This document shows positions 6,769 through 43,666 of a DNA stretch of 64,000 nt, one piece after another. The notes below the pieces were generated by a model. It searched no databases, had not been told where the DNA came from, and was given only the letters and a program-made list of their open reading frames with translations. The number at the start of each line of letters is the position of its first letter. Positions within the stretch are counted from its first letter, which is position 1. Position numbers and translations under genes: made by a program. The stretch covers positions 6,138,001 through 6,202,000 of the forward strand of contig OZ020254.1 of the NCBI GenBank assembly GCA_963971285.1. Direction: 5' to 3'. Origin of the DNA: Astropecten irregularis. Taxonomy: Eukaryota > Echinodermata > Asteroidea > Paxillosida > Astropectinidae.

Positions 6769-7194
6769 TATAATACAATTGGTGTTATTGATGCTGCTTG
6801 TAATTCTGGTGATGGTGTTGCTGGTGCTGCTGATACTGCAGCAGCTGATGCTGCTGATGCTTGTGCTGATATTGATGCTAATGCTGCAAGTGCTGCTGCT
6901 GCTAATGCTGCTGCTGCTAGTGCTGCTGCTGCTGCTAGCGCTACTGCTGATGCTGCTGATGCTGATGATGCTGCTGATACTGCTGCTGCTGCTGGTGCTG
7001 ATGCTAATGCTGCTGATGCTGATGATATTGCAGTTGATGCTGATGCTAATGCTGCTGATGCTGATGCTAATGCTGCTGATGCTGATGCTAATGCTGCTGA
7101 TGCTGATGATATTGCAGTTGATGCTGATGCTAATGCTGCTGATGCTGATGCTAATGCTGCTGATGCTAATGCTGCTGATGCAGCTGCAATCAAG
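6769..7194 (+). repeat. GCT/GAT/AAT-repeat block with exon-like borders (Ala/Asp/Asn frame)
   Basis: Imperfect trinucleotide array with a higher-order 84-bp duplication (gatgatattgcagttgatgc at 7021 and 7105). Left edge: pyrimidine-rich tctctcctaacatttcag|, with a ctaac branch-point-like motif. Right edge: atcaag|gtgaag. The 426 bases between are exactly 142 codons, open as Y-N-T-I-G-V-I-D-A-A.. then Ala/Asp/Asn repeats. Other frames are open too because of the repeat, so coding use is unproven. An unspliced reading from ATG at 6694 would start with a hydrophobic stretch. Confidence 0.4.
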
Positions 7195-21843: not shown

Positions 21844-21862
21844 GAATTCCGTCCGGCGGACG
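21844..21862 (+). other. 5' UTR segment joined to coding exon 1, with upstream splice acceptor
   Basis: Bases 21815-21843 read as a pyrimidine-rich tract ending in GTACAG, a clear 3' splice site. The 19 bases from there to the ATG are therefore the end of a leader that begins in an upstream exon. No ATG occurs in these 19 bases. An alternative is transcription starting just upstream with no splicing, but I see no TATA box at the right distance. Confidence 0.7.
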
Positions 21863-21991
21863 ATGGGCGTGGCTGCATGGGTGGCGCTTTGGGTCGGTAT
21901 GGTGGTAGCCCTGGGCTTACATACCGAGGCCTGCCTGGTACAAGATTGCCCTAATGGCGGTAAAAGATCAGGGTTGAACGCAATTAGACAG
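21863..21991 (+). CDS. VP/OT-type precursor, coding exon 1: signal peptide, nonapeptide, first residues of neurophysin
   Basis: Forty-three codons. The start ATG has A at -3 and G at +4, a strong Kozak context. The signal peptide has a Val/Ala/Leu/Trp-rich core and ends at Ala23, directly before Cys24 of CLVQDCPNG. GKR follows, then eight residues (SGLNAIRQ) that precede the first neurophysin cysteine. The Arg-X-Cys spacing matches the Arg8-X-Cys10 of mammalian neurophysins. The exon ends CAG|GTAAGT, a consensus donor, in phase 0. Reading on into the intron meets a stop after seven codons, so the frame is only 50 codons long without splicing and is easily missed. Confidence 0.95.
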
Positions 21992-24900
21992 GTAAGTGTT
22001 GCTCAGCATTGCTAAAATCACCAAATTACCCACCCACCAAATCATTTATGTTACTATACATTAAGATGCAATGCATGCTCAGTATTTGTCCTTTCTGCCA
22101 ATGCCATGCAGTAAAAGAAAATAGGTTTATATTTTGAAACATGATCTGTTTGAAAAATTAGAAATGTTATACTGTACTTTGGTGTGTTTCTTAAAAAGAT
22201 TACCGGTGGTAATAACTTTGGAAACAAAAAAGTTGATTGAAAGACTAACAAAAACGTTTCATCATATATGCTAATAAGCGTATAGTCTATGCGATGGGCG
22301 CACACGCCGTACAGCGAGCGAGCGTCTATTACATGCGTGCAGATTTCCTGATTAATTATGTAAGCCATCACCCAGCACTGACCTCAAAGTTTTGACCAAT
22401 GAAAGGGGCATCGACTATCGTACCGTTTGGCTAGCACGTCTATCACGAAGATAGCTGCTACTGCACGGACGCGAAATTGACAACAATCAACATCGTGACG
22501 GAAATGTTCTAAAAAGAGATCTGATTGGCTGATGTGCGGCATTGCATAAAATTTGCATGCACGCATGTATCAGACGTTCGTACGTAGTGCCACGGAGTAG
22601 AACGGGTGATACTCAGACTAATAATCGTAAACGGAAACAAGAAAAAGGAGAACAAACTAGAACAAACGTTAAGGTCCTGGATGATTTCATTTTGTCCGTT
22701 TTCTCGGTCACTGATTAGTTTTGATGTGCTCCCATCAGTTGTGTGTTGTGTCTGCTGGAGTGTTTTTGTAACATTGATCTTTTAGATTGTGGTACACACC
22801 CACGCCTATGCACACCTGCGAGTATTGGTTCAATGTGTAGGCCTATATCCCTGTCCCCAGCCCTTAAGATATTTGACCCATGTCATCAGGTGGGAGATGT
22901 AAATTTCAAATATTGCAATGAGTGCCACTACTGGACATGCCCGCCCATCTAGATGGGAAATATCGTCATTTTGAGATGCAATCACATGAAACAACTTCAT
23001 GTTCCGTATGACGACTGCCTTTAATATCAATCGATGTTCAGCTGTAACCTTCGACCTCAACGCATCCTTATAAGTTATAGGCAAGGTGTTTAGAAGGCGT
23101 ACGGTTGTTAATTTGATTGGTGGGGAGTTTGGCTCGATCCCAACTACTGCCCAAAGCCTTACTTTGTTCAAGATCTATTTTCACAATAAGGGGTCTTTCT
23201 CTGCCCCTCCTCTCCCAGGGGGTAACGGTCTCGTGACAAAATAGGGGACCCGTGCAGTCTCAAGGCCGAGTAGCTCAGCTGATACACACCGCAAAATAAG
23301 CAACGGGGAAGAACCGGTAGAATACACACAAACACCGGTGATTTTTCACCAGTTTTCGAATGAAAACCCCTCAGACGCAAAAGCTCACATGTTGTGTGCA
23401 CTGTACTCGACCTTAATTTTGCGAATCCATGATCCACTCTTACATTGACGAGCTGGTATAAGACCAGATCTGCAAGAGCGTGATTCTTTGAATAGAGCTC
23501 AGACATCCCTCTCGATGCGTTGTCCTAATTGATTGCTATATATGGCTATGACATTGGAGGTCTGGAGCCTTCTAATTGGGATGAATGCTGCAAGCTGGCA
23601 CGAGCTCAGCAACCGGGGTTTTATAATCAAGGAAGGTTCAGACCTTATGGGCTTATAGACTAATGACACGATCGGGCATAGGATTTCACTCTGTTTACAC
23701 ATTCAAATTCCAAGCAAATATTGGTGGATGTGCTGATATGGGGAGTTCGGCTGAAGGTTTTAACACGATGAGGCGTTATAGTTAGATCACACCGTGCATT
23801 GCTAACAATCAGTCCCACGGAATCATAGGTTGGAAGCGGGGTGCGTTCGAACGTTTGTTTGCTCGTTAAATCAAGGCGGGCGGTTATACTGGGCTCTAAC
23901 TATCAGCGCACGCACACGGCGACTCAATGTCATATGTAAAAGTCGAGAGCGGTCCCTGAACAGGTCTCGAACTTGATTGCATTATCACGCTGCTGTTGGT
24001 TTCAACTATGAAAGGCGAGATAATTAAAGACCCACCAATTTGGACCCAGGGGCCCCACGGAATCAGACAATGGCCACCGTGCTCGGTTGAGGAAAGGTAT
24101 AGGTAGGAGCTTCTTCAGAAGAAGGCTGTGCGTGAGGTTTAGGGGTCGTGGGTCGGCAAAATTTCGCCACTTTATCGATTCAATCGGTTCATTTCCACAC
24201 GGCAGCTCAGGGCGAGGGTCCCTCAAAGGGGATAACCTTTGTTGAAGAGTCTACGTGTCCCCAATAACCCCTTCCCACCACACCTACATGGGTGACAACA
24301 TCCCATCCCGGAGTTTCATGTGACATTCTTCTGAGATTATCATTCTTTTGCTGAAATCTCACCAGGACAACTGTCGTGATCGTGTCTGTAAATTTTATAT
24401 ACATATCCCGTGATGTTGGGTCTCATTCTACGGATCACGAGTATAGCTTAGCTATTTATTCCCCCTTGGTTCTCCAATATACATATTCATATACAAAATG
24501 TTCAAGCAAAAACTTCGCTGCGCCATAAATAGCCTTTTAACAGATCAAAAATAATTTGGGTCACTGGTTTTACTCTTTTCTGGAAAAATAAACAACATTT
24601 CAGGTGAGAAAAAAATTAATGGTATGTTTCTACAATCACCATCTTTATATCCTATAAGTTATAGAGAAAATCTGAGAACATTTGTGTTTTGGTAGGCTAC
24701 AAAAGTTTGATACTACCTTTAGGCAATATTCTATTTACATGGTGTTTTTTAAGATGCATCGCAAGAAAAAACAACAATTAAAAAAGTCAAAAAAGGGAAA
24801 TCAAGCCAATTTATTATTTATATGAATATGATGTCTCCACATAAAGTTCTCTAACCAATTGTTTCAGGAATGTCATTTATGTAGAAGGCTGTCATATTCG

Positions 24901-27900
24901 GGACAAAACGGATTTGAAATGGAAAGATAATAAAGAAAAATCGCAATGGCTGCTTAACAGAAATGATTAAAACGCAATGGCAAGTGCGCAAATTCACCTG
25001 TACAAACACAGACCTTTTTTGCCGTTTTTCTCGACAACTTGAGGACCGATTATGATAAAGTTTTCTCAGGTTACTATTATGACTATGGACGGTTGGAAAA
25101 ATAGATGAATGGTATATGAGAGCTCTCTTGGTCCCCTATGAAAAAAAATCATCCCCACCCCCAAATTGAATAATTCAAATTCTAAATCCTGTCATTTCGC
25201 ACGGGCTTCGCAAATCACTGGCGGGTGGGTTGACAACATGAAACAATACAGTGTAAAATTGGGCTTGCATACTCCGACGTGTACCAAAACTGCATTTGGT
25301 GGGCCTTATGTAAATGAATAAACCTTAAAATGTGCCAACGATTTTTTTTTCTACTTTTACCGACGTCGTCAACTGCGAGTGGAATATCACAAGCCATACA
25401 AATTGGCAGGAAGGAACAAGTTGTGCGCCAATTAATTGCTGGTGATCGATTGGGAGAGAGTGTAAAAGACGCAGTATGACATGGCGGCGTCTGACAGTCA
25501 TTCACATGCACCGTAGTCTCTCGGGGTATGATAGAGACCGGACCTGGTGGAGGTTATATACCGCCGTACCGTGACTCCCTCCAAGAACTTAACACAATAG
25601 CCAGGGAGTTCCATCCGCCCACGTTCATGGCCACCGTGTAGCTGCATGGTTATCGACCAACTGAAAATGCCAAACGACAAAAAGCCATTCATCGTTTTTT
25701 AGGCCCTCAAATGGAATACTGCGACATAATGGCTACTTTAATTAATGGCGAGCCTTGCAACATCTATTATACTCGAAGTCAAGGTGAACATTTTCCTCCC
25801 GGAAAAAAATGCATCACAATGGAAAGGTTTTATGGAGTATAGATTTGATTTTGGTCATTGGTTGAAGGCTATGAACAAGTTTTTTGAATGTAGGCGTTGG
25901 CACGCACGCTCGACAGTTATCAAAGTTGCTCGTCCATCGAAACAAAAATCAATTTTCCAAAAAACTCTACATGTCTTCCGAAGTATATATCACAGGTACT
26001 GCTAAACTATCGGCTCAAGTATCCATGTGGACCGAAACATGATACATTGAAATTTAATACGGTTTTGCAAAATTGCAAGTACATATATGAACTGATAAAT
26101 CAATATACGTGGCGATACAAAAAGTGTCCCACTTGAATGAAGGTGGATGGAAAGATATGAAATATATATATATCTTATATTATTGCAAACCAAATGATGT
26201 ACTGAGACCCCATTTAAGGTAATATCCTATACTTTGGTTTTTGTCAAAGAAATGAAGACTAATGGGCAAAATATCAAGGAAGATACAGTAACAGTCATCT
26301 GTGAAATTTTCAGTCCCATACGGTGCCCACTTTTTGAGAAAACAGTAAAAAAAAAAAAAAAAAAACACGCCACAGTTATTGTTATCTTTAGAAGATAAAG
26401 AAAAAAGGTTGGTCATTGCTTTTACTCTTTTCTGGATGAATACAGCATTTCAGGGAGAAATGTAACGGTATATGTCTACCATCACCATATTTATATACCC
26501 TGTAAGTTAAAGGTAAATCTGTGAAGATTTCTGTTTCGTTATGCTCCCAAAGTATGATAGTATCTTTAAAGCACTCCCAGTTCTGTCTACCCAGGACCCA
26601 GACAGGATATCCAGCTTCCTATGCATTCCTCTTCAACGCCCTAGTGCGTTAAGCTTTAAGCATCCCCTCAAGGTGTCACGCACCACTACGAACTTTCTAT
26701 CCTCCTCAACCCGGATGCTTTATATCCATCTAATACCCCTACTCCATGTTAGCCTTCCAGTCAGTCGCCTATTTCGAGACTGACGTTTAGTTGGAATCTC
26801 CTGAAGACGGCCAGAGCATATACTGGCCGGAACGTCCAGTTAACTAGCTCTTTCCAGAGCCATCCCATACTCAGCAAAAAATACATATCACATGGTGTTA
26901 TTGGAAGCCAATTACTTTACTTTACTTTAAGTCCATATAATACTTGTGTAGTGTCTTCCTATTATACTTCTTCTTTCTTTGACTCGAATTGGGTTGAGTC
27001 AATGTAAGTTACAAATTCGGTTTGTTTGAGTCGACTCGAGTCATTGCTCACATCATGTCGATTCAATACTAAGTGAGTCGATTTGATACTCAGTGACTCG
27101 ATTCGATACTCAGTGACTCGATTCGATACTCAGTGACTCAATTCGAAACTCAATGACTCATTCGATACTCAATGACTCATTCGATACTCGGTGACTCGAT
27201 TCGATACTAAGTGACTATACATTCGATACTCAATGACTCGATTTGATATTCAGTGCCTCGATTCGATTCTCAGTGCCTCGATTCGATACTCAGTGACTCA
27301 AATCGATACTCATTGAAGACGAGTCATTCGATCAATTGAGCTTCGTGGACAAGCAAGCACCTCGGCTTAATGTAGCCGATTAATCCGCAATATTATTATT
27401 GCAAAGTACAGATGATTTTATGTAGCCAAAAAAAGGCCATTTTGACCTCACACAACAATACAGGCACCCCATGCTATACAGGTCACAGACCAAATGTTTC
27501 CATGCAAAGGTGATGATAAATTATGATAATAAGTAAATTGCGTTGAATTGCAGGTTAAGAATACACACTGATAAAATTAGGAACAACATTGAAGCCTCGA
27601 ATCTTTCTTATCAAGTTAACATGCAACATATAATCCTAAGATGACAATACCATTTAGCACAACAAAACGAAGAAAGAAAACTATGACATTTAGATTCATC
27701 AAGTATGGCTTAGATGTGGGCAAAAGTTTGGGCAAAATGTTAAACTCTTTTGGCAGACTGTCTATACTTATTTCATTATGGTATCGGCTTCATAAGTTTG
27801 TTCACATCTTGCTTTTCGCAAATGCCTTTTGAAGGGGTCATCGGTAATAAGCATCCGGACTGTATTTATATACTGAGGAAGTGACCCACTCATTTTGCCA

Positions 27901-30900
27901 TTGACATTTTGGTTAGAATAAAGACACGAAGTGAACATTTTCAGGCAAACATCCTGCCAGAATGTCACATCATCCTTAAAGCAAAGCACGTACGTCTTTA
28001 ATGTTTGGCGTCCCTTAATTGCATCATAGGGAATAAGCGCATTTTGCTGTTGAAGTCCGTGACAAAGCTGATTTTGAATGTGTGAAAATGCGTGGGCCCA
28101 TAAATATAAGCACACACCTATACGGCAAACATCTCGATTTAATTTGGTTAGGACCGGATAGAGGAACGCCTACGTAGCGGTTTGCTCTGCGTCTTTTCTT
28201 CGCAATCGCATTTTCAAATTTATAAGAACCGCACGGTGCGACAGATTGCAATGTTTTTCTTTCTTTCTCCTTTTTCTTCTTCTTTTCCTTTTTTTTTTTT
28301 TTTTTTTTTTGGGGGGGGGGGCTTTCTTCTCGCGTCGAGTTCAGTATAAACAGACATCATGCGTTGCATAGGAATACAACCTGTTAACTGCTTGTACGTC
28401 TGTCCTGGTTATAGGCCTGGCGAGCGGGCATGACAAGTCTTTCAAGGGCGTAGTTCTAAAAAGCCTGCTTTACATTTTTGGAATTTTTGATTGCTATAAT
28501 TTTAGGAGGGGAATCAACTACATCTAATATCATAGCTCTATTACAACTTATTCAAGTTATGTTTTTATTTTAAGTTTCCCGGTTAATGTGTCATTTGAAG
28601 GTGTGCAAGGACTCAATAAATAGTTGTTAGTGTCTATTTATCGTTGATGGCATGAATTGCACGATCGTACATTTTGATGAGTTGGTGCCTTAAAGGGCTC
28701 TGAAGATCTTCACACGATTCTAAAAAAAAATACTCGAAAAGCTTGCAAGTTTTTCTCATGCTTGAGAAATTTCTCAAGGATTCAACAAGGACATCAGTCA
28801 CTCTCAATTTGGATGGCATCCTTCTCAAGCATGAGATAAACTCGCAAGCCTTGCGATTTTCATGGTGTGAAAAGGCCTATAATTATTGTTTGACTGACTT
28901 CGCTTGCAGTGTGATCCGCACAAACAAAACACGATTAAATAACAAACCTTGTTTTAGGGCCTGTTTGTTTAATGCAAAGGATCGCGGATTCTCAGCATTG
29001 CGGATCCGGATCCTATTTTAGCGTACCCTGCATAGGACTAAATAATTATGGGATCTTCTGCATTAAAAACATGCAGGCCCATAGATAGAGCCTATAATAG
29101 GCACGTTCACACACATCAAACAAGTCGCGATTTGAGTCGCGACCCAAATAGTCGCGCTTTTTGGTGTGTGTGAACGTGCCTATAGTGTGTATATGGTTGG
29201 CTGTAGAAATACTTCTCCTGATTAAATACTGAGGGAAATTATTATGTGAAATGTTTCCACAATTCACAAATTCTTTTAATTCTCTGCTCTAAAGGCGATC
29301 CATGCAGTACAGTGAGACGTCGTGAAAAACCGCTTGTTTGTGAATAGACCCTCCTTGCTTGTTTTCCCGTTTATTCTTTTTTTTTTACATAGGCCCTTAT
29401 TAACATTACATCTACATGCATGTCCCATGTGACCTTGCGTTCACAATAAAGAGTCGATAGTATTGGACGCGATGTGCATGACCCCAAACGTCAATAACTT
29501 TGAATCTCAAAGTCATGAAGAATTCCTCTGACTCAGTATGCTTTAGCAAGACTGCGCCCGCGAGACCGGCTGGGCGACTTGAGCCAACCGTTCGGTCCGG
29601 TCAAGATACACCGGTGCCTCATAGAATTAACCATTTTTAGTACATTGCCGCGCGCAAGGCCTTCAGACCCTGCGATATAAGCATCAACCGAATTACTGGC
29701 GCATTGACGACAGACCAGAGACAGAAAATTGGAGGAAAGAGTCTGATTTTGTCGATTTTGTCGAAAACGCAACCAAGGTTACTGACTTAACAGCCAGTGC
29801 AAAAGGAAAAGGCATTATTGTGCGACTTTCTTCATCTTCTTTAATTTCCTGATTTTTCTCTCTCTTTCTTCAATGTCTAAAACAGGCATCAAACGGGCAA
29901 TAAACATGTCCAGCGTTAAAGGGCGAATCTTTAGTAATGTTGTTTAATGGATATTTTCTTCTCTTTTTTTTTTCATTATTGAAAACCTGCGGTTACCGAA
30001 ATCAATGGCCTTGCCAAATCAACAAAATAATAATGAACGGCACAATCAATCTTGATTGGATTAAGCCTCAGAATGGCAAAATGGCATCTCGCATAATCTC
30101 ATCTATTTTGCGAGAATATCTTCGTTTTTTCCTTTCTTATTTTGTCTGGCCAAGAAACTGGAGATGAGCTTTAGATTCACGTCATCACAAAGGGAATTGC
30201 TCCAACCAAATTAACAATATACAAAAAACCCAAACAGGTACTTTTTTGCTTTCAATTTGTTCATGGGACTTGACGCTGGTCATTGTTGTGGTCAGTGGTA
30301 TTTTCACTTATTCCCAATTCCATTATTAGATTTTAAGTATTGATTTGCACAACCAGTGCACGTCATTCCGTATTAAAAAAAAAGTCTCACCATGGGCGGA
30401 ACTATTCGCGGCCGGATTTGCGTAAGCTCGAGACAATTATATCTCTTTGCTTAGCTGGATATTTACATTTACAAATTTCTATTTAGATTTTGAAAGATAC
30501 GAATGGCTTGCACGGGATGGAGTGAATGAGTTGGAGGAGATTCTGTTGATTCGACTATAAATCAAATCACTTTCAATGGCCTGACGTAGGTTTTTATCAT
30601 CGTGATTCGCAGTCTGAGTGGTGTTTCCTTATCTGTATTCTCGGAAAAGGTGAATTTTCCATCTTTCGAAGATGGTTGTTTTTGTTTCAGTATACCAACG
30701 TTGTTTTCTTTCAATTATATAAATGCCTACTGCTTTATGGATGTGCTGTAGGCCCTATCCATGCGTGAATAGACCCTATCTACGGTGCATATCCATCCTG
30801 CATTCGAAGCAGTGCAGTCAAACCGAGGCTTGGATTCAAAGTAGTCTGGTACCCGTTTTCTTTTCCGAATTGGTGTTATCTTTTCCAACGGGTATACAAT

Positions 30901-33900
30901 GAAGGTGACAAGATGGATGCAAAGTGAATGTTAAGACGTATAGCGCATACACGTGAACAAGTGACGGGACTTGGTCAGTGGATAGCGGGATTGCGTGTAT
31001 TTATAGCTTCAGTCCAATATGTTGGGTTTTATATAACTCAACCGACATGCAATCAAATGTAATGCAGCAAACCATATTAATATAGGAAGTGTCAAACGCT
31101 GACACAATATCGCGGTGAAACATTCTCCGATGTCAATGATGACCGGGTTTATATACTTTACACCGACCGAAAGAGTCGGGCTGATACACGATCTGTTTTG
31201 CCACCTAGAATCAGCCGAAATATACTCTCCGTTTAGCCTACTTTCCAGACATTTCGTTCGTCTGAAAAAAAATAATAAAGACGCAAGGAGAGAGCTATCA
31301 CGGTAGCAGGTGTTGTGACTGTCATGACTCCCCGTTGGGGCGTGGCCTAGGTGGTATAAAGTGCTTAGAGCTATATACCGCCTGTCTAATCAAACCTGAC
31401 GATAAGATTACCTGAACCTGAACATCTTTTTTCTTTCAACTGCATGAAACTTCACTCGTCAAACTAGAGCGAGCTTTTCCGGAGTATGTGTTTGGTGTTT
31501 GACTTCATACTTCATTTTTTGCGTTTGTGTCCACTTGTTTGCTGGTCATCTTTCCTTTATCCCCTTTGGGATTTGCTGTCTATAGGTCTTACGCCTGACG
31601 TGACGATTGAGCGTCGCTTGGGGCTGTCCGGGGCGGTATATTACATTGAGATCGATCGCCTAGAGTCCTCAAGGTTTGGTTCCCTTACGCCGTGTGCCTG
31701 CAAATTGGGGTCGAACACCATCGATTAGGAGGTTGTCAGATGTTGTCACTTCTAGCACGGCATATACGCTTTGCATGCGACGCGAGGGCAATGTCCGACA
31801 GCGCGTCAGATCTGGGGCCAATTTCATAGAGCTGCTTAGCAAAAAAAATGCTTAGCACAAAACTAGCTTGCCCAATAAAACACACCACCATTGAAATTTC
31901 CATTTGATATTTATGGTCAGCGAACAACAGGCAAAGACCTATTTCAAGTGACACAAAACACACGGATATATGGTTGCTAATTCTGTTTTTATTAAGACAG
32001 AAATGTCATGCTTAGCGAATTTTTGTGCTAAGCAGCTCTATGAAATTGGCCTCTGATGGGGCAACGCTGAGTCCAAACGCACAAGCATTATAGGTAGCAA
32101 TACCGGCTGCATTCAGAATTGAGAATCACTCGTGTTTCTTTATGGACGCTCATTGGGTCTTCGCAATTGGGAACCGACACGGCGACTAGTAATGCACGAA
32201 TTCAAGTGTCTGGTTTATAGCAGGGTAGATAGTAAATATTATTTCCTACGTCGCTGCTAAGCACATAAACCTGATGTATAAGCACACAACTTTTCATATA
32301 CTTAAAAAAGCCTCCTGTTACCAACTAGAAACCCATAAAAATGAAGGAAACCAGTCGCTTAGCTACATGATACTGTATAAACTTTAAAGGCGTGACGTCA
32401 TGATGATGCTCAAAGGATCATGTCACTTTCACTGGCAGAACAGCATGACAGTCTCTTTCTGCTTATGCTTCGAGTTCATATAAACATAATCAATGGTGTG
32501 CAATTCAATTTGCTCTAACTCAATTTATTTGTCGCCAAATGATTTCATTCAAAATTTGCAAGGCCGTGGAAGACGGGAATTCGTGGCTGCTGTTCAAGGA
32601 ACAGTACGGATCATTTATCGATTCTACTCCAACAGAAATATGTCATAATCGGATAATGGCAAAGCTTGACATGAACTGAAAATGGGGGAAGTTTGTCCAA
32701 AGCCATTTGAAACAAGTATAAGCATTAGTGGGACATGATGTGTGATATCGTGAATATCGAAGTGAATTTTTGTTTATACAGCTACAGATGACAATAAATA
32801 CTTGAAAGACCATTTCATGATCTGTTCGAAACGTCGGATGTGCTCTCGGCCTTCCATGAACAGAATAGCCCAAGCTTGACTAAAAACGAAAGTGGGTATC
32901 AAAAACTCACACGATAAGGGGAGAAAAGACTACAACATGCATGCACCCCTGCCATCTTGGTCATCCTGAGTTAATTCAGAAGGTCTTCAATCAAAAATGA
33001 ACAGTCCAAATCATATCAACATCCTGCCATACTTGGGGAATTGCGGAGGGAAGAGAGGGGTCTGACTGAGGGTTTTATTATTGCACGATGAGACGCCTTC
33101 CTATAGCTTAAGGCCGCACATTGCCAGTTTCCTTACGGTGACATTCTCCTAATTGTTCGATTATTCACGGACTCCCGTCGGCCTATTGTAATCGCATGCA
33201 GGCAGGCGGCGCCGTCAGGTATGGAGATTTTAATATAGAATCATCCATCAAACATTTCATATAATATAAGACAACAACTCGGGATTCATTACTGGTTATG
33301 TGCTCCCTACAGAGTGCAGTTTGAAATCTAAAAATATGGAGGTATGAGGAGAGAAATGAAGAGCAAAATGTCATCTGCACAATGCTTGGTCGTTCAGGCT
33401 TCGATTTGCAGCCGGCCAGGTGCTCATTGCAAATATCCACAGGCTCTCTTGACTTTTTCTTCTTCTCCTTTTCCTCCCTAAATCTCATAGACACGTTCAG
33501 CACCTGCTCAAAGTGCTGCGTGGTAGGACCCCAAAGTTCTAGGCCGATAAACAGAGGGGCAGGACGGAAGAGAGGAAAAGGGGGAGTTTCAGGCATTGGG
33601 GCGAATGTTACCCTTCGTTACAGCGGCAGATTGGATTCCTGTAATTTGTAATGGAGGAATTTTGTTCACTCATTTCACTTTATATGCTCGAATTAAAGAT
33701 GGACGAGCGCTGTTGTGTGAATTTGATCAAGTTCAAGCTTTCCCACTTTTTTTCTAAGCCCAGCAGGCACCCACTGAATCGTAGCGAACGATAGGAATAA
33801 GACTGGTACCTGTGACGTTCATACAGATTACGTGGTCATTTGCAATGTGACCCTCGGGGCATCAGACAAAATGGCCGCCGTGTAATAGACTTCTTTGTAC

Positions 33901-36900
33901 GGCTCTCTGCCTTTGAGTCACGTTTACCAGCTGTCCGCCTCATACAGCACGAACACTTATAGAACTAATCAGGCTCCTCGCTTTTTGTGTGAAATATCTC
34001 TGAACGTACTTTCTGAAATGTAGTAATTACGCGCTGTGGGAGCAATTCTTAAATGTCGGCAACAAATGTCAAGTGCATTCGCTTTTTTTGGGGGGGGGGG
34101 CGGGGGTTCGTATTTATGCCTTTACATATTTGATGGGTGTGTCGACGTTTGAGGAGAAACCACACAAAGAAATATCACTTAGTCTGAAGGATTACCCAAG
34201 CTGACGAGTGAACAAAGAACATTTTGAATGAAGGGTGATTCGAACCAGCGGCCCCCGGAATATTGTACCGGTCAGTTTTCCTTGTTTGAGGATTATACCC
34301 AAGCTGTATGTGTTCATGTGGTATGTAACTTCAGTATACAATCTTGTTTTATACCTAGGTTAATACCCAATACATGTAGCTCTGACTTTAATACCAAGCA
34401 ACTGCATTCATTATAGTGCTACCATTGAACCATATTTTCTTTAAAGAGATTTCGCGGTGTAACGTTGCTGTTTTCTTTTTAGTAAAGAATCGTGCAGTTA
34501 TATTGCAGGAAACTATAACCTAACCTCCCTCACCAGATTGGTGAACCCAAACCCAAACCTAAAGAACATGACATAAAAATGTGCAAATGGCAAATGTGAT
34601 ACGTACGGAGGAAAATCGGTCGTTCTTCCGGTGAACAATTTCAAAGCTTCACATAATTATAACAGACCTATAGTCTTCTCTTTAAAACAAAGCAATAAGA
34701 CAATCTCAGGCGGATTAATTTTCATGGATAGTTGATATCACATACACGGCCCTTTCCGAATAGGTTCGTTCCGGGCGACATTAGTATAAAAACGAAGAAA
34801 CTGCTTGTAGCACTCGAAATGAATCGTATATGTGCTCATCCGACACTTCTGCGTAACTTGCACCATTGCCTGATGAATATGATGAGTTTAACATGACAAC
34901 CAAATGGCCACGGGTATATACTAGCAATATTGAGACGGGGATGATCGAGTGACAGTAATCAGCATGAGCGTATACAATGTACATCATTCGAAAATGTACA
35001 AGTAATCAAAGCGCAAACGGAGAACAACATTTGAGCGGTGGAAACAGTTCAAACTAACTGCGAATCGCAGTGGGAACAGGTTTCTGGCGTCATGATCCAC
35101 CGCGTGGCCCGTACTTTTAACAGCTCGGTGCCATGCCAGATCTACAGGGCAAGCTGTAATGTCCTGGGGACTATGTTTAATTTCCGTATTACACGATACC
35201 TACACCGTGTCATCATTTTGATTCCTGTTATACAGATACATTGGCAACACTTATAGACACCCCTTCTAGTTTTAAAGTGCATTGCACCAACTCAAGCCTA
35301 TTTGATCGAAACGAAGTCAGGAATAAGGTGATCAAAATCACGCGATGTCGTGTTGCTGGTAGCGACGTTTCGGCTGCCGGTACTGCTAGCCTTCATCAGG
35401 CAACTGAGACAGAAATTAGACATAGGCATAGATCGTACGGCGTCTTTAAAATGAACATTTGTAATCAAATTGGTTCTAGTCAGTTATGCAAAAGTGAGGC
35501 ACACTTAAAACGGCTAAGCAATCTTGATTATGGTTTCAAGGGAAGATGGACGGTCGTTTTTTTTTATGACGATGCGTTGTTATATAATTATATATGTCAG
35601 TTTAAAGAAAGTTTAACACAGGGAAAACCGCTGCAAAATCAACTGCCAATTTGGAGACCAGAATGCCATGTTTGGTGCTGGAAGGTTTTAGGTAAGATTT
35701 GGAAACTTGAAATGAAGTTTGCAAGATGAAACAGGCTTTTACTTGGAAAAGGGGGAGAAGTTGTTGGCAACTTCGCTGCAAAGAAACCAACTGGGGCCAC
35801 TTTCATAGAGCTGCTTAGCACAAAATATCACTAAGCATGATATTTCTGCCTTAATAAAAACAGGATTAACAACCAAATGTCCATGTGTTGTGTATCACTT
35901 GTTATTTGGCTGTTGTTCGCTGGCCATGAATATCAAATCGAATTTTCAATGGTGGTATATATGTTTTACAGGGCAAGCCATTTTTGTGCTAAGCAATTTT
36001 TTGTGCTAAGCATCTCTATGAAATTGGCCCCACGGTAACAGTCGTAACGCGAATGCCTTTTCGTTTCTGCCTATTAATGCGGACGAGTGGGAGTTTGAGC
36101 AATAGAAAACAAATAGACTTCACACAGAAACATGTGTGATATTGTAGTGTTATAATGGCATGGGACGAAATTCTTAAGAAATAGTATTCTTAATTATAGA
36201 ATGTTTAAAGTGTAGATAACGATTATCATGGTTATTGTGATTTTCGGAGAATGATAAATTACCACTGACCACAAGTGACTTCATCATCGGAGTGGAAAAA
36301 CAGCCCGAGCAAGAAGCGCAATTTACGGCGGGTCTCTGATAAGGAACAGCTCACCGGAGGGACCGTAAAAAACTCCCGCACTGCGTGATGTCAATTGAAT
36401 GGGTCTGAAATAGACACCGGTCTTTTTTCCTTGATGTTTTAATTGAGGAACCCTCTTTATTAACGCCCGGGAAACTACTCCGCACGCACTGTGTGATGCG
36501 ACGTACGTGTCTGTCCCTGTGTATACATTCAACTTCATTTTGAGCAATCTTGTTTGTTTGGGTGTTGTGGGACTTTATTCTTGTCTTCTTTTTTCCTGGA
36601 AAACCGAAAACCTTACGGGTAACTCGAGACAAGGCTAAACGCCTATGCATTTTCTTTTCTTTTTTAAGCATCAGCGAATTCGTTTTGATTAAGGTTTAAT
36701 AACTTCGCGTCTCTTTTTTGTCACCTAGACGCAATTTGTTTGAAGGTTTTCTTTTCTGTTCTGGTAAGATGCAGATAAAACAAATTCAAGCTCATTTATT
36801 TTCTTTCCTGTTGACATAAATTACATTTCTGTTGGATTATGACTTTATGCGCATATTTTGGCGCAAAGGTAAATGACGAGTCATATTTCCATTCGCGCCG

Positions 36901-39517
36901 AGTTTTCGCTATATAATTCTCCGTGGTCGTGCATTCAGCAGATTTAGAAAGTTATTCTCGTGTATAAAAAAAGGGAATTTAAACTGTATTAGGAATTCAA
37001 ATGTTTATAACTGGCGTTCATCTCGATTGTCTTCTGATTACATAATGATTTCATATTTCAATTGGATAGTTCTTAGCGGCGCCTATATGCCATACGGTTT
37101 GATACTTATGTGGTCGGCTTAAATTCCTGCGATGTATCTATATTCCTATAGGTCCCTGGTTCGAAACCCGTTCAGCCACCATGATTCCCCGTCCCCATCA
37201 CACACCTACATTAACTGACATTGATCTTACGGCGCCAAGCCATCGTGCGGGTCTGATATAGTGCTAGCAGGCATGTCGGCCTGGGATGCAGTGCATCCTA
37301 TAGGTCCCTGGTTCGAATCCCATTCGGACAAAATTATTCTCTTCCGCATCACACATAATTAAGTGGTTACAACTCTCACTGATCTTGCAGCTCCTATCCT
37401 GTGGGTCTGATAATTCTGACTATAGTCATGTCGATCTGGGTTCCTGCAGTGCATTTATGATACATATAGGTTCATGGTTCGAATCCCGTTTGGGCATTAT
37501 TCCCTGACTCCCTCCCGCATTACACTCCATTACATGGCTACAGGTTAAACTCTCGCTGGTCTTTTACAGCGCCTTTCCTGATGGTCTGATAATTCTGACC
37601 GTCTTGTCGGTTTCCTGCAGTGTATCTTTGATTCCTATAGGTTTCCGGTTCGAATCCCGATTGGTCGAATTTCTTAACCCCATCCCAATCATGATTTCAT
37701 ATTTTCTCCGTTTTTGCTCTCTTTACAGTGCCTATCCTGCGGGCCTGATAGTTCCGGCCAGTGCGTGGGCTCGGCTATATGTTGCGGAGATTCCTTCGGG
37801 TGTTTCTTGGGCACGTCGGAGACCTACGTCTGCCGAGAGGAGAGCGAACTCTCCACGCCCTGCCAGATTGTCGGCGAGACCTGCTCGTCAGTTCCCGACG
37901 GGAGGTGCGTGGCCAACGGTTTTTGCTGCAGTCAGAGTGAGTATAACTGTCTTGAGTTTGAAATGCCGTCATCCCTATCCCCACTACCCCTTTCCTCAAT
38001 GTCCCTAAGCTCCCTCCCATCGCCCCTAGGATCATTGCCCCTAGCCCCATCACACCTATCTCAACTGCCCCTATAACACTACATCACATTCTCCGGTATA
38101 AGATTAACCAATGGAGGAAGGAAGTAACGGCCAAAGTCCAGTACCATAACCTGCAAGCTCGGTAATAATCTGGCCCGTCACACTAGCCCTCTTCGGGGAA
38201 TACTCCACTGGCCAAGCTGAAGTGATCTTAGTCCCTCTAGACGCCCTTGAGCAAGACGCTTTTATCACTTGATAACTGCTTCTCCTTCGCGCAAGTTTGA
38301 CTTACCAGGGTAGTTATTGGTTGTGGAGAAGTCTCTCCATGCGCTTAAAGAGCAACTACGGTCGCGCACTCACAAAGGGAATTCAGAGTGTTTCGGAGAG
38401 ACTCTCGGGTATTGGGTCTGAGAAGCATGCTGAGAAGTAGACAATAATGACACGATCAAATCTTCAAAATGTGAACTTTTGAAATTCACTGGATTCCTGT
38501 TTTTGCTTCGTTCCTGGCTAAAGTTACAGGTGTACTGTGCATACCTGAAGATGATTTATAATAGGCTACATGGCCTATTATTTCAACCTATTTATTATAT
38601 AGGTAAATGGCCTGTGAACTGACTCTCATTATGCAAACCACAGTAACAGTTTGCATTGCACTGCCAAAGAATCAAATCCATTAAAGGTATTATACATGTA
38701 TGTACATGTATCATTCTTTGGTATAGGAAACCAAAACAGATATGTTCACAGATTTATGTATAAATTACAGGGTATAAAGACAGACGTTTTACAAACATAC
38801 CGTTAAAATCTCCGAAATCAAAACCTCGCAATCAAACATTTTCGTACAATTTCGCATTACAATCATGCTCTGTTTTCTACTGTTTCCAATGATCAACTGA
38901 GCTGAACATTTCACAGGTTTGTTTTTATTCCATGACAAATCAAATGATGAACATACCAAATTATGACAGAACCTTTTCAGCAAAACCAATCTAGACTGCA
39001 AGATGGCACGGCGGATGAGCCCGTGCAGCTATTGCATTTTGTTACTATTTAAATATACGGTGTTTTTGTTGATGCTGTTGTTGTTGGGTTATTTTTTCGG
39101 AGGGAAAACATTGATCAATAATGATTGGCTTGCACTTCTGCCTCACAGTCATGAGTCCGGAAGAATGATCATTTAATAAAATACTCAATTATTCAAATGC
39201 CAAAAAAGAGAAGATTGCACTATGTACCACTGCAAACGCTATGGGGGATACATTCTCTGGATCGGAAGCGTCATACCCTGATAGTTATCCTATTTGGGGA
39301 TCATGGATGACGTTCATGATCTCGAGAGCGGATCCACAGATCCACCTATATGCCTGGCATTCACGAGCAAGCTCATGCATGCAAGCTGCCGTCTGATCTG
39401 CTCTTCAAACTTTAAATCCTCCAAACAAACAGTATTCAATTATGTGGCTGATTGGACTCTCACGGTCTGACAAGTGCCAATAGACCTTATCCGTTTACGG
39501 CAATAGCTAAGGGGGCA

Positions 39518-39552
<35 letters not shown>

Positions 39553-42120
39553 ATTTTCTTCTCCAACTCAAAATGACATCAGCAACACAAAGAATGGACA
39601 AACAAGGGCATTGCCCTCTCTGATATGACGTCACGATATCTACTTGACTACCCACAAGTCCAGGCTAGGTATATATAGACAGGAAATCGTGAAAAAAACA
39701 CCGTAAGGCAAAACTTAAAAAAAAAAAAAAAACCTTAAAAATATGGAAATAAAAGTAAAATAAAGTAGATGAGAAATAATATGATTTGAGCCAATTTGCT
39801 AACCATTCCGGTATGGGATACAACCAACAGAAATGACTTCGGCGAGATGAAAGTGGAAAAGCCTTGATACTTCGGTCACTGTCACGCCGTAGGACAATCA
39901 CATTTCACGTCCGCCAATTCAGTAGCATGCGACTGCATTATTACAAGACTATAATTTTTTTGTGCAGGCCATTCAGGTCACCTGTTCTGTATACAGCATT
40001 TTAAGCAACTTAGTGCACTGATATTGAGATAATAATAAGTCCGGGCTATGGAATAAATTGTCTACGGGGCGCTAGAGGTGCCATCCGACTTGTTAAGATC
40101 CTTAGTTAATTCATCACGGGATGACGACATCCTAAAAATCAAGATGACGACATTATGAATTAATTCATCACGGGATGACGACATCCTTAATCAAGATGAC
40201 GACATCCTGAGATAATTTATCACGAGATGACGACATCCTAAAATCAAGATAATGACATCCTGAGATAATTTATCACGGGATGACGACATCCTAAAATCAA
40301 GATAATGACATCCTGAGATAATTTATCACGGGATGACGACATCCTGAAATCAAGATGGCGACATCCTGAGTTAAATTATCACGGGATGACGACATTCTAA
40401 AATCAAGGTGACTACATCAAAACGCGATCCAAACATAACAGAAATATCTTCGTCATCTTGATTTTAGGATGTCATCATCCTGTGATAAATTATGTCGTCA
40501 TCCAAATATCATTTTCATCTTAAGATCTCAACAAATCGGATGGCACCTGTAGAGCTCCGTAGAGGTCTGTTGGTAATAAACACGTTCTGTTTTACAATTC
40601 GAGCCCCTGATCTGGTATAAGGATGACCCACCTATAAAGCCCCCTTGAGATTGCACCTGCCGAAGCTTACTGGAGAAATCCACTTCACACTACTCCTTGA
40701 TAGGGTCAAACTGCCAATTTCTTTTTACATTTACAATTTGCTTTTCTTGATTTTACTTTCGATCGGTTCAAGATGGACTGTCCGATTCATGACCAATGTG
40801 ACAGCTCATTATTGACTTATTTATTTATTTGATATCTTGAATCACTCGTGTTACGAGATAGGACAAATACAACGTCCCTCCCTTCATAATCTTACCCCAA
40901 AACATGAATTAGGGATAAATGGCAGTTTGTCTACAAACAAAATGGTACAATACGTTGATCCAGAGTCTATTGTATGCAGTGATTGGAGAATTGTACCAAG
41001 ACAACAAAACATGCGAGATTCATTGACATTTGTATGTCATCCTGTGTAGTATGATCATAATGGAAGCCGTTCACGGACGGACAGATATGCCTTGATGTTG
41101 AAATGATAAATAAATGCCCGACATTTTCGTGATATATGCATGCAACTGCTTATCAATCCTCTGCCCCTACCCTACGCACCCCAAGACTCAAACGCCTCTC
41201 CGTGAACCTGGAAAATACAATGGGTCCGACCGCTTGTATATCGACCGTCGATATGATACATCGAGTCACCCAAGCGCATCATCTGCCGTGAACGACAAAG
41301 ACACCTGAGCCTTCATAAAATGTTGAGGCAATGGCCAAAATTAATATCAAGGGCCTTTATACGAAACATTGGCTTGGGCTCCGGCTCAAACCATTTTAAA
41401 GTAACAGGTATCAAAATAGAGGTGTTGGGGTATGGTTCCGAAAGAGATACTCTGTTCCGAACAAGAAAACGGAGTTTCAACCTCAGGGGAAAACCCACAG
41501 CCTGTATTTGAGCTTTTAGATAATGGAGCCTAAGCCCAAGCCGTGATTTCGTAAAGGCTCAAAGATCCGTATAATATTAGGGGTTCTTGGTTTATCGGAG
41601 ACAGCGAAGATATAATGGGCAGTCAGAGAAGTCACATGCACCCACAGTTGGTAATACACGAAAGGGTTGCTCTAATTCAGTCTTTGAGATATTGAGCTTC
41701 AGTATGTCAGAGACAGGAAGCACATTTCTATAGGGGCCACATATAGTCTTCAAAAGAAGGGAGGATAGTTTTTGTTGCCATTGGTTTTGTACACTATAAA
41801 ACTGTCCACCTTCCTTTACACGAATTTACACACTACCACAATATACACGTTCCCAAAGGTGGGATCGGCTATACAAACTCTGCAAACTTCTCACACCCAA
41901 AAGAAACAAAATCATTATTTTCTTATAAAGGTTAACATCTTGATTTACACCCGGCTCCCACAGAATTCATTTCACTCAGATTCTCCCCTTTTCTCGTTCT
42001 TTCTCGTGCCCAGGGAGCTGCTCGTTAGACATGGAATGCAGAACAACCAAACCAGGACAGATGAACCTCAAGGACAGACTGAAAGAGAGGCTGCTAGACG
42101 CCCTCTTGCGTCAGCCTTGA
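21863..42120 (+). CDS. Vasopressin/oxytocin-type neuropeptide precursor (nonapeptide + neurophysin), three coding exons
   Basis: Join of 21863-21991, 37729-37936 and 42014-42120 gives a 147-residue secreted prohormone. Residues 1-23 are a signal peptide (hydrophobic core, cleavage expected after TEA). Residues 24-32 are the nonapeptide CLVQDCPNG, with Cys1-Cys6 ring and Pro7. The following Gly-Lys-Arg (33-35) is the amidation and dibasic cleavage signal. Residues 36-121 are neurophysin with all 14 expected cysteines. Residues 122-147 are a Leu/Lys/Glu-rich tail. The family acts through G-protein-coupled receptors after processing in neurosecretory granules, where neurophysin chaperones the peptide. 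All junctions use GT/AG and keep frame (phases 0 and 1), with exon borders at the same neurophysin positions as in vertebrates. Asn at peptide position 8 differs from the Glu of asterotocin. Species and receptor are unknown; the family assignment is close to certain. Confidence 0.96.
24543..24721 (+). mobile_element. TTAA-type MITE, 5'-truncated copy in intron 1
   Basis: Only the right half is present, from ggtcactggttttactcttt through the terminal repeat ending gatactaccttta. The left inverted repeat is missing. Confidence 0.65.
26214..26579 (+). mobile_element. TTAA-type MITE, complete copy in intron 1
   Basis: Left end TTAAGGTAATATCCTATACT, right end cccaaagtatgatagtatct then TTTAA. It contains an inner poly-A run at 26347-26365 that is absent from the sister copies. 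Confidence 0.75.
26797..26838 (+). ncRNA. Hammerhead-like motif, degenerate
   Basis: ctgaaga, then a stem made by cggccag and ctggccg, then gaacgtcc. This follows the order of a hammerhead core (CUGANGA - stem II - GAAA - ..GUC) but lacks one A of GAAA. Such minimal motifs are known at the ends of Penelope-like retroelements. Activity cannot be judged from sequence alone. Confidence 0.3.
27030..27330 (+). repeat. Minisatellite, about 20-bp units (gatactcagtgactcgattc)
   Basis: About 14 units of gatactcagtgactcgattc with small changes, in intron 1. The preceding gagtcgactcgagtc stretch is partly palindromic. Confidence 0.85.
28283..28320. repeat. Poly-T then poly-G homopolymer tract
   Basis: More than 20 T followed by 11 G, in intron 1. 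This is a likely place for assembly length errors. Confidence 0.85.
28738..28848. repeat. Inverted repeat (hairpin), about 110 bp
   Basis: gcttgcaagtttttctcatg + cttgagaa at the left pairs with ttctcaagcatgagataaac + tcgcaagc at the right. The loop holds no other feature. It is probably a short MITE remnant in intron 1. Confidence 0.6.
28957..29081. mobile_element. MITE with gggcctgtttgttta ends
   Basis: gggcctgtttgtttaatgca and gcattaaaaacatgcaggccc form inverted ends around gcggatccggatcc. A second copy is at 55445-55565. About 125 bp. Confidence 0.65.
29097..29184. mobile_element. Short hairpin MITE with ataggcacgttcacacac ends
   Basis: ataggcacgttcacacacat and gtgtgtgtgaacgtgcctat are near-perfect inverted ends of an 88-bp palindrome with gtcgcgatttgagtcgcgac in the centre. 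It lies directly next to the 28957-29081 element. Confidence 0.7.
31814..32051 (+). mobile_element. MITE with ggggccaatttcatagagct ends, well-kept copy in intron 1
   Basis: Left ggggccaatttcatagagct, right agcagctctatgaaattggc. Same interior and length as the copies at 16903 and 35793. Confidence 0.8.
35362..35400 (-). ncRNA. Hammerhead-like motif, intact core sequence
   Basis: On the minus strand: cctgatgaaggctagcagta then ccggcagccgaaacgtcgc. It contains CTGATGA, a GGCT/AGCC stem and GAAAC-GTC in hammerhead order. The flanks are not recognised as a retroelement; helix III is minimal, as described for Penelope-associated ribozymes. Confidence 0.35.
35793..36031 (-). mobile_element. MITE with ggggccaatttcatagagct ends, reverse copy in intron 1
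   Basis: The ends ggggccactttcatagagct and catctctatgaaattggccc are near-symmetric. The interior is in reverse orientation (aaaacaggattaacaaccaa comes first), so this copy is inverted relative to those at 16903 and 31814. Confidence 0.8.
37078..37770 (+). repeat. Tandem array of 153-179 bp units running into exon 2 and including its splice acceptor
   Basis: Five related units start near 37078, 37231, 37389, 37568 and 37727. Each begins with a version of agYgcctatcctgcgggtct followed by gataattctgac, and the full upstream units carry a tRNA-like B box (ggttcgaatccc) near 37160, 37310, 37480 and 37650. The last unit is the start of exon 2 itself (TTTACAG|TGCCTATCCTGCGGGCCTGA). Units at 37389 and 37568 keep AG acceptors (CTTGCAG, TTTACAG) and then about 30 bases resembling the coding start, now with changes. 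The intron/exon junction has therefore been copied several times, or the exon start was built within such an array. Confidence 0.8.
37729..37936 (+). CDS. VP/OT-type precursor, coding exon 2: core of neurophysin
   Basis: The exon is preceded by a pyrimidine tract and TTTACAG and ends CAG-A|GTGAGT. It has 69 full codons plus one base (phase 1). It starts CLSCGPDSSGQC and carries 12 cysteines at the neurophysin spacing: C-2-C-7-C-5-CC-5-C-9-C-9-C-6-C-7-C-5-CC. The only spacing change from bovine neurophysin is 7 rather than 5 residues between the Cys61 and Cys67 equivalents. The segment CREESELSTPC keeps the Glu equivalent to Glu47, which binds the hormone's free amino end in vertebrates, plus the matching Leu and Pro. 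An unspliced frame runs on to 38076 but is intronic after 37936. The acceptor and first ~40 bases belong to a local tandem-repeat family. Confidence 0.96.
38681..38815 (-). mobile_element. TTAA-type MITE, truncated reverse copy in intron 2
   Basis: Begins TTAAAGGTATTATACATG and runs through caaaacagatatgttcacag to acaaacataccgttaaaa, the reverse complement of the family's right half. The tacatgtatgtacatgtatc expansion lies within the terminal repeat. Confidence 0.65.
39524..39553. repeat. (CTT)n microsatellite
   Basis: Nine to ten CTT units in intron 2. Confidence 0.85.
40062..40562. mobile_element. Inverted-repeat element filled with a minisatellite
   Basis: Left end ctacggggcgctagaggtgc then catccgacttgttaagatc. 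Right end gatctcaacaaatcggatgg then cacctgtagagctccgtag is its inverted copy (~39 bp). Between them is a tandem array of roughly 55-60 bp units with core cacgggatgacgacatcc and tgacatcctgagataattta. Near 40450-40505 the same core appears inverted. Confidence 0.75.
42014..42120 (+). CDS. VP/OT-type precursor, coding exon 3: neurophysin C-terminus and tail
   Basis: Found by requiring an acceptor followed by two bases, one codon, a Cys codon, five codons and another Cys codon, as neurophysin demands. A long pyrimidine tract (41979-42010) ends in CCCAG at 42013. The codon split over the intron becomes Arg, giving CCSQ-RSCSLDMEC, which supplies the last two cysteines at vertebrate spacing (four and five residues). 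The frame continues for 26 residues to TGA at 42118-42120. The tail is rich in Leu, Lys, Arg and Glu (LKDRLKERLLDALLRQP) and looks like an amphipathic helix. A longer frame on the same strand (41772-42284) covers the site but reads it in the wrong phase and is not coding. Confidence 0.93.
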
Positions 42121-43666
42121 TCCAGTTTCCCCCCGCCGTACCACCATTATTAGTGGTTTGGAATTTTTTTGTAGTTTCTATACAAAAAAAAAAACAACGC
42201 ACAATGCAACGTGATACAGAAGCGCACGTTCGATTACGGATTTCAAATACGGACAGTTTCGAATATGAACAATTTCGTCTTTAATTAGGGGGGATTATTA
42301 ACGTGTAGGCCCTTCATTTTAAATGGGTAAAGTGCCAAAGAAACGTCACAAAGATCGTGTATCGCTTTGCATTGTGCATGGAAACGTTGATGTAAATTCG
42401 AATATAATTTAAGAAAAAAACAAATTACTTTGAGTCCATGTTTTTAACCAAGTCGAAGTTAACAATGAAATTATTTTAAAATAACTGTTATAATTCTTGT
42501 ATTTTCTTTTATTTTTCCGCCTGTATTATAATATCTATAGCCAGATTAAGCACTAATGATATACTAAAATCACACATTAAGATGGTTTACAGAGTGATGG
42601 TTTCATCTTCAGGGTGGTTTCGAAATATGATTCTTATAGCTATGGAATTTGTGGTTCTATACACGATGAAACGACCTCAACAATATTTGTAATGTTTCAA
42701 ACTTAAATTATGTGAATGAAATGCACATCATTGGTCAAATGCCAGTTCATCGGTCCCAGTCCCATACGCGGAACACTCATTAACTATCCAATCCAAACGG
42801 ATATTACGTTACATGAGAATCGATTCAATAATTATCTATCGTAAGGGTCCTGACATGTATTACTCGAAATGACTCGAAATTCGTTGGAACCGAACACAAT
42901 TTGAGCAAACAATCAATTTTTCTTTAACATGAAGCCGTTGCGGCTGCAAGCTAATTCAATTGCGTCTTACACTGCGTAAAGAAAAAAATGTTTTCTTTAA
43001 TACCCGTGTTTTTTTTTCTCTTTTTGTTTGCCTTGTGATTTCCCTTCATACATTATTACTAATTAAAACGCCAAGTGTTCAGATTGCACGCTTAGACAGT
43101 CGTATGCCCTATATCACAATATAAAACAAGTAGATGATAATAGTAATAATAATAAATAATGATAAAAAAATACAAATAACATGACCGAAGTTTACCCCTA
43201 CATGAACCAACGACCAAATAACATGAACACAGATTGACTCAATCGGACATGATTATATCGTACAGATTAATTCAATAATTGAGTAGACGTTCGCTATTCA
43301 CAAAATGCCTATAACCTTGTTTCTAGCTGTTAGCGATTTAAATACCCACATTAAAGTTACATATAATTATAAAACAAAGACAAGCATTAATGTAGTGGCA
43401 ATGGTACTAATTGTTTTTGTTTTCATCTTGATAGGTTTACTAGTATTATTATCCCTTTTAAACCCGAGTTTTGAAGCAGAGAAAAACATAATGTTGTCCG
43501 AACATCAACACTGGAACTTTAACTCATCCTCATGTATATTAAATGATTTTGGACGGAAAATACATAATAATTTGTTATGCAAATTAGGCTTGCCCTTCAC
43601 CGACCTGGATGGGCACTGTATACTCATCAGTGCTTGTGAGTGCACGTGAGAAAAATCACGTGCTGG

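Follow-up and report, generated by a model that had tools for sequence, protein, structure and literature searches.

A vasopressin/oxytocin-type neuropeptide gene in Astropecten irregularis, orthologous to starfish asterotocin and linked to an NGFFYamide gene

The family of vasopressin/oxytocin (VP/OT)-type neuropeptide genes, its three-exon layout, and its starfish member, asterotocin, are already published. The A. rubens asterotocin precursor (accessions KT601711 / ALJ99953.1; PMC4772807, PMC6668147, PMC9974683) is described as a 147-residue protein with a predicted 23-residue signal peptide and CLVQDCPEGG plus a dibasic site (PMC4772807), and the introns, in A. rubens as in four further deuterostomes, are of phase 0 and then phase 1 (PMC10532012). 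The VP/OT peptide of Acanthaster planci has been reported to be the same as that of A. rubens (PMC10532012), and the brittle star Ophionotus victoriae has CLVSDCPEG (PMC7181382). In A. rubens, asterotocin has a relaxing effect on the cardiac stomach. The NGFFYamide precursor of A. rubens has a published length of 239 residues (PMC4772807). Linkage between the VP/OT and NG-peptide genes has been published for amphioxus (PMC4422128); the portions of the literature consulted contain no statement of such linkage in an echinoderm.

In the window, the whole 64,000-nucleotide stretch of Astropecten irregularis DNA analysed here, three coding exons on the + strand (21863-21991, 37729-37936, and 42014-42120) with GT/AG borders are joined by spliced translation into an in-frame 147-residue prohormone; the coordinates and borders given for these exons in the initial annotation proved right to the base. 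Coding exon 1 starts with the ATG at 21863 and encodes a signal peptide of 23 residues (MGVAAWVALWVGMVVALGLHTEA, judged by eye to end in HTEA directly before the hormone), the predicted mature nonapeptide CLVQDCPNG (21932-21958, +; residue 8 is Asn, codon AAT at 21953-21955), the amidation Gly, the dibasic KR, and SGLNAIRQ, and is followed by the donor GTAAGT and a phase-0 intron. Coding exon 2, with the acceptor CTTTACAG in phase 0 and the donor GTGAGT in phase 1, encodes the neurophysin body with the first 12 of its 14 cysteines, and coding exon 3, with the acceptor GCCCAG, encodes the last two (RSCSLDMEC) and a tail ending in KERLLDALLRQP, the TGA stop being at 42118-42120. Twelve pairings were translated in considering other exon 2/exon 3 junctions, and canonical borders on both sides were found only for 37936/42014. 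One exon border lies immediately ahead of the first neurophysin cysteine and the other within codon 113; those of vertebrate VP/OT-neurophysin genes lie near these two places. The vertebrate genes also have in common with the present one the hormone, GKR, and the 14-cysteine neurophysin, but differ in the nonapeptide, the tail, and the genomic neighbours.

Position 21843, 19 bases ahead of the ATG, is the last base of a pyrimidine-rich splice acceptor (TTTTTTCGTACAG), which delimits a putative 5' UTR segment (21844-21862, +) at the start of the first coding exon and suggests that an additional non-coding exon is likely upstream of 21844. Past the stop, the first AATAAA lies at 43151-43156 (+) and is, as a motif, a possible poly(A) signal; ATTAAA also occurs at 43062. 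Both introns are large and contain tandem repeats. When read without splicing, exon 1 gives 50 codons (43 plus seven by read-on) and exon 3 is masked by a longer, overlapping wrong-frame ORF of 170 aa, just as had been claimed; exon 2 is overlapped by a 134-aa wrong-frame ORF in addition to its own 120-aa ORF. Animal gene annotation does not rely on ORFs. As to the further claim that the gene is hidden from ORF-based annotation, the masking ORFs are real, but such hiddenness is ordinary, and exon 2 is immediately picked up when the raw DNA is searched for the family.

The 147-residue product contains 16 cysteines, two in the nonapeptide and 14 in a C-terminal neurophysin that follows the hormone, and the nonapeptide has the Cys1, Cys6, Pro7, and Gly9 of the VP/OT pattern, followed by Gly-Lys-Arg (CLVQDCPNG-GKR). 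The whole Pfam Hormone_5 profile (positions 1-79 of 79) was matched by the spliced protein with 83.7 bits (cut-off, 27.2 bits; E, 1.7e-23), exon 2 alone giving 74.7 bits, and neurophysin II was matched in the PDB (E, 7.3e-21) with the cysteines aligned; given these two E-values, the family match is far beyond chance. The signal peptide, CLVQDCPNG-GKR, neurophysin, and tail of the initial annotation are therefore all present in the translation, and its assignment to an echinoderm VP/OT-type prohormone gene is supported by the Hormone_5 match together with the comparison with the A. rubens precursor. We are highly confident that the locus is a VP/OT-type neuropeptide gene, the orthologue of starfish asterotocin and the sole one detected in the assembly.

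The comparison with the A. rubens precursor covers length, layout, nonapeptide, and the 12 C-terminal residues, and agreement was found in each, the nonapeptide at 8/9 residues. As far as the published descriptions extend, the two precursors share the 147 residues, the predicted 23-residue signal, CLVQDCP-G with a following G and dibasic site, the 14-cysteine neurophysin, the C-terminus KERLLDALLRQP, and intron phases 0 and 1. The published peptide CLVQDCPEG-amide is not matched exactly, residue 8 being Asn here and Glu in A. rubens; therefore, the predicted peptide is an orthologue and variant of asterotocin, not the same peptide. Glu also stands at position 8 in Acanthaster planci, by the report mentioned above, and in CLVSDCPEG of Ophionotus victoriae, which shares the CLV.DCP.G core with Asp at position 5 but has Ser at position 4. 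With Asn in place of Glu, a lineage change, the predicted peptide carries one negative charge less, and no published report of an Asn8 asterotocin-type peptide was found. Read from its sequence, the gene is normal and apparently intact, and ordinary apart from Asn8 and its linkage to the NGFFYamide gene described below.

Exon 3 is the weakest part of the gene model. It is short, exon 2 by itself yields 74.7 of the 83.7 bits, and exon 3 might be argued, as the initial annotation allowed, to match by chance, with the true last exon at another place. In a separate survey of AG sites, those giving C-x5-C near the start in the correct phase were retained and both [ST]C and EC were then required. 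Between exon 2 and the end of the window, 10 of 1255 AG sites gave C-x5-C in the right phase, and 42014 was unique among the 1255 when phase, S/T-C, and E-C were all required; on the whole + strand of the window, where 16 of 3133 sites passed the C-x5-C step, again 42014 alone had both motifs, and the - strand yielded 16 passing sites among 3251, none with both. Furthermore, intron 2 is of phase 1, as published (PMC10532012), and exon 3 is independently confirmed by its last 12 residues, which are identical to the published C-terminus of the A. rubens asterotocin precursor (PMC9974683). A chance third exon is thus extremely improbable. The large, repeat-containing introns might instead point to a silent or decayed VP/OT copy with the active copy elsewhere, a reading that we regard as very unlikely: every frame is open, the splice borders are canonical throughout, the family's expected 2 + 14 cysteines are present, and the last 12 residues are unchanged from A. 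rubens. When the 147-aa protein was searched against the assembly, which may be incomplete, with E up to 10, four matches were obtained, with all four candidates scored, namely the three exons and the neurophysin of an NG-peptide gene.

The latter gene raises the question of whether the present locus itself is the NG-peptide (neuropeptide-S) type of neurophysin paralogue, as the two gene types share the neurophysin and also a phase-0 intron placed ahead of its first cysteine. This has hardly any probability. The VP/OT gene encodes a single CxxxxCPxG peptide adjoining GKR and no NG-peptides before the neurophysin, whereas two NGFFYGKR copies are found in the NG-type gene, a distinct locus whose neurophysin is not interrupted by a second intron. 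In the 475.7 Mb assembly, a family search detected two neurophysin loci, the VP/OT gene and this NGFFYamide gene, the same search having matched 0 of 14 well-known genomes as a control. The NGFFYamide gene (C18:5923538-5926613) is located on the same scaffold, 233 kb upstream of the VP/OT gene and in divergent orientation, with a 200-base assembly gap (C18:6028857-6029056) between the two, and its rebuilt precursor has 239 aa. The two loci, with the NGFFYGKR copies and this length, would by themselves make a starfish origin very likely. An exact-pattern search for the corazonin core of A. rubens gave no match, in agreement with a species other than A. rubens or with an intron interrupting the pattern. 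As the orthologue of the A. rubens NGFFYamide precursor (PMC4772807), it shares the neurophysin and the phase-0 intron with the VP/OT gene but has NGFFYamide in place of the cyclic nonapeptide and the neurophysin in one exon.

The surroundings were surveyed over 292 kb (C18:5910001-6202000), which contain 766 composition-filtered stop-to-stop stretches of at least 70 aa. Of these, 187 were listed (at least 85 aa in the window and at least 106 aa elsewhere, with three omitted at piece borders), and 130 of the 187 were covered by the Pfam scan, the neurophysin stretch of the NG gene falling below the length limit; Hormone_5 was the sole strong match, in one of the 130 stretches scanned. FANCL_C, Bromo_TP, Benyvirus_P25, UBA_9, and TrAA12 matched one stretch each among the 130 (E, 0.00045 to 0.0035). 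In the window, no Rfam match reached the gathering scores, and ARAGORN gave no tRNAs. According to PMC10532012, echinoderm VP/OT genes have as neighbours NCAP, KCNK, DOCK1, LPHN2, iPGAM, and a nucleolar protein, the last being what 'NP' stands for there, not the NG-peptide gene. A search for the latrophilin family gave no match in the assembly and none in the control genomes either, so that this negative carries no information.

By analogy with the family, the precursor would be made by neurosecretory cells and the hormone conveyed to their secretory granules by the neurophysin. After cleavage at KR by a prohormone convertase, a carboxypeptidase and an amidating enzyme would turn ..PNGG-KR into PNG-amide, with a bridge between Cys1 and Cys6, and the peptide, once released, would act on a G-protein-coupled receptor of the VP/OT type. 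A clear candidate for the receptor gene, as judged from sequence similarity, is C16:10539075, whose 154.9 bits against the human oxytocin receptor are the highest in the genome, followed by 113.1 bits, and whose frame has the V1a, oxytocin, and V2 receptors as its best matches in the PDB. The candidate and the next best match (on C21) lie on separate contigs, unlike in S. purpuratus, where a receptor pair is reported to be adjacent.

Semmens et al. noted that it would perhaps be worth investigating what residue 8 does in asterotocin (PMC4772807), and the Asn8 peptide is a natural variant for probing it. The actions of echinoderm VP/OT peptides vary, with contraction in sea urchins and relaxation in starfish, and therefore the action of the position-8 variant is a guess. 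The linkage to the NGFFYamide gene parallels that described for amphioxus (PMC4422128) and, if found in other echinoderms too, would support an origin of the two signalling systems by local duplication before the chordate/echinoderm split. As a tentative proposal, which as a whole is rather doubtful, the VP/OT and NG-peptide genes of starfish may have been chromosomal neighbours since an early-bilaterian duplication and may still act as opposed feeding signals, asterotocin in stomach relaxation and NGFFYamide in contraction, while the acidic residue at position 8, regarded as a mark of starfish and brittle stars, would have been lost in this lineage and would thus be dispensable for the starfish-type relaxing action.

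The VP/OT (vasopressin/oxytocin-type) gene consists of three exons on the + strand of the window: exon 1 (21863–21991, 129 bases), starting with the ATG at 21863 and followed by the donor GTAAGT; exon 2 (37729–37936, 208 bases), flanked by the acceptor CTTTACAG and the donor GTGAGT; and exon 3 (42014–42120, 107 bases including the stop codon), preceded by the acceptor GCCCAG. With intron 1 in phase 0 and intron 2 in phase 1, they join in frame to encode 147 residues, arranged as MGVAAWVALWVGMVVALGLHTEA-CLVQDCPNG-GKR-SGLNAIRQ, a neurophysin with 14 cysteines, and a tail ending in KERLLDALLRQP. The initial annotation had joined the three exons into a complete prohormone, and this join passed every sequence test made. 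A pyrimidine-rich acceptor ends at 21843, 19 bases 5′ of the ATG, and suggests one further, non-coding exon upstream. Intron 2 holds an array of a 53-base unit (40098–40418; 6.1 copies, 89% match).

The Pfam profile Hormone_5 matched residues 42–121 of the product over all 79 profile positions (83.7 bits, against a cut-off of 27.2 bits; E = 1.7e-23), and exon 2 by itself scored 74.7 bits. A PDB search gave eight matches up to E 0.1, every one a neurophysin (best E, 7.3e-21); in both alignments displayed, the cysteines line up. For exon 3, use of a different exon supplying the last two cysteines had been named as the alternative. A C-x5-C motif near the start and in the right phase follows 10 of the 1255 AG sites located 3′ of exon 2 within the window, and the whole + strand gave 16 C-x5-C matches from 3133 AG sites; the only one with Ser/Thr before the first cysteine and Glu before the second is 42014. 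The − strand of the window (3251 AG sites, 16 C-x5-C matches) has none with these residues, and the 12 residues KERLLDALLRQP are encoded nowhere else in the window.

The published precursor of asterotocin, the VP/OT peptide of the starfish Asterias rubens, is described as 147 residues long, with a signal peptide predicted at 23 residues, then CLVQDCPEGG and a dibasic site (PMC4772807; PMC6668147). Its C-terminal region, KERLLDALLRQP, which served as the antigen for antibodies (PMC9974683), is exactly the end of exon 3 here, followed by the stop. The three exons and intron phases 0 and 1 also reproduce the VP/OT gene layout given for A. rubens, sea urchin, sea cucumber, amphioxus, and Ciona (PMC10532012). 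Because of the shared precursor layout, C-terminus, and exon/phase arrangement, the gene is best read as the starfish asterotocin orthologue, rather than as merely VP/OT-like, and the original identification as a VP/OT-type neuropeptide gene was right. The hormones differ at residue 8, which is Asn (codon AAT) here and Glu in A. rubens. The Acanthaster peptide is reportedly the same as that of A. rubens (PMC10532012); brittle stars also have Glu at residue 8, and a review takes acidic residues 5 and 8 to have characterised the ancestor shared by starfish and brittle stars (PMC7181382). Semmens et al. (PMC4772807) suggested that what residue 8 does in asterotocin may merit study. A full-text search found CLVQDCPNG in no paper; CLVQDCP is followed by EG in the available text of PMC6668147, PMC7181382, and PMC4772807, and the string CLVQDCP also occurs in that of PMC7536072.

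In the assembly (475.7 Mb in 168 contigs), Hormone_5 gave two matches (all 3 candidates scored; a match in 0 of 14 control genomes) and the 147-residue protein gave four (all 4 candidates scored), together representing only two neurophysin genes: the VP/OT gene and a minus-strand exon at 5923541–5923795 of C18, the contig carrying the window (C18:6138001–6202000). About 2.1 kb upstream of the latter lies an exon with two NGFFYGKR copies, and the likely complete gene (C18:5923538–5926613, minus strand) is that of the NGFFYamide (NG-peptide, neuropeptide-S type) precursor. Its three exons encode 239 residues (a likely signal exon, chosen from two candidates, 39; NGFFYGKR exon, 115; neurophysin exon, 85), as many as reported for the NGFFYamide precursor in A. 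rubens (PMC4772807). The NG neurophysin also has 14 cysteines, and the two genes share a phase 0 intron exactly at the first neurophysin cysteine; the NG gene lacks the second, phase 1 intron that the VP/OT gene has.

A candidate VP/OT receptor was found on another contig, C16, at 10539075, the best among 97 matches listed for the human oxytocin receptor (43% identity over residues 2–195 of the 309-residue query). Its open frame has 376 codons (1336–2463 of locus L030, with matches at C16:10539075–10539686 and 10539807–10539986), and a PDB search with this frame ranked V1a, oxytocin, and V2 receptors ahead of any other family. Judging from the family, the neurophysin would sort the hormone, the precursor would be cleaved at KR, the hormone would be amidated and closed by a disulphide, and the released peptide would activate the receptor. 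In A. rubens, asterotocin is described to relax the cardiac stomach and trigger its eversion (PMC6668147), and NGFFYamide to contract and retract it (PMC4772807); our best guess, by analogy, is that the two peptides have these roles here.

Elsewhere, the window contains tandem arrays at 1612–2082 (period 6, consensus AAACCA, 76.5 copies) and 6789–7173 (period 21, 18.6 copies), in which several frames are open, giving spurious ORFs rich in Gln/Asn/Lys and Ala/Asp. A 200-base unit at 52925–53325 is duplicated perfectly head to tail (2.0 copies) and, because the match is 100%, is either recent or an assembly artefact. Among 130 open stretches scanned in C18:5910001–6202000, five weak single Pfam matches (FANCL_C, Bromo_TP, Benyvirus_P25, UBA_9, and TrAA12; E, 0.00045 to 0.0035) are possibly single exons or chance.

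The starts of the NG gene (5926613) and the VP/OT gene (6159863) are 233 kb apart on C18 in divergent orientation, and the chance of two random genes lying this close is ~1 in a thousand (2 × 0.233 / 475.7). Since one 200-base gap (C18:6028857–6029056) lies between them, the linkage rests on scaffolding there. In amphioxus, the two gene types are placed in tandem (PMC4422128). The same paper reports that in S. purpuratus the VP/OT-type receptor gene adjoins the NGFFFamide receptor gene, its discussion having 'precursor' once where the result has 'receptor'. No statement on linkage of the two precursor genes in any echinoderm was found in the available text of PMC10532012, PMC5818035, PMC4422128, and PMC5860471, and none of the other paper titles listed pointed to one, which is weak evidence for its novelty. 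The linkage may be the retained trace of an ancient duplication, or else a later rearrangement.

That ORF-based annotation would miss the VP/OT gene is true but carries little weight, because homology search finds it immediately. The gene is conserved and ordinary, its novelty being that of a further member whose hormone has one residue changed, and its linkage to the NG-peptide gene is a point of context that deserves checking in other echinoderm genomes.
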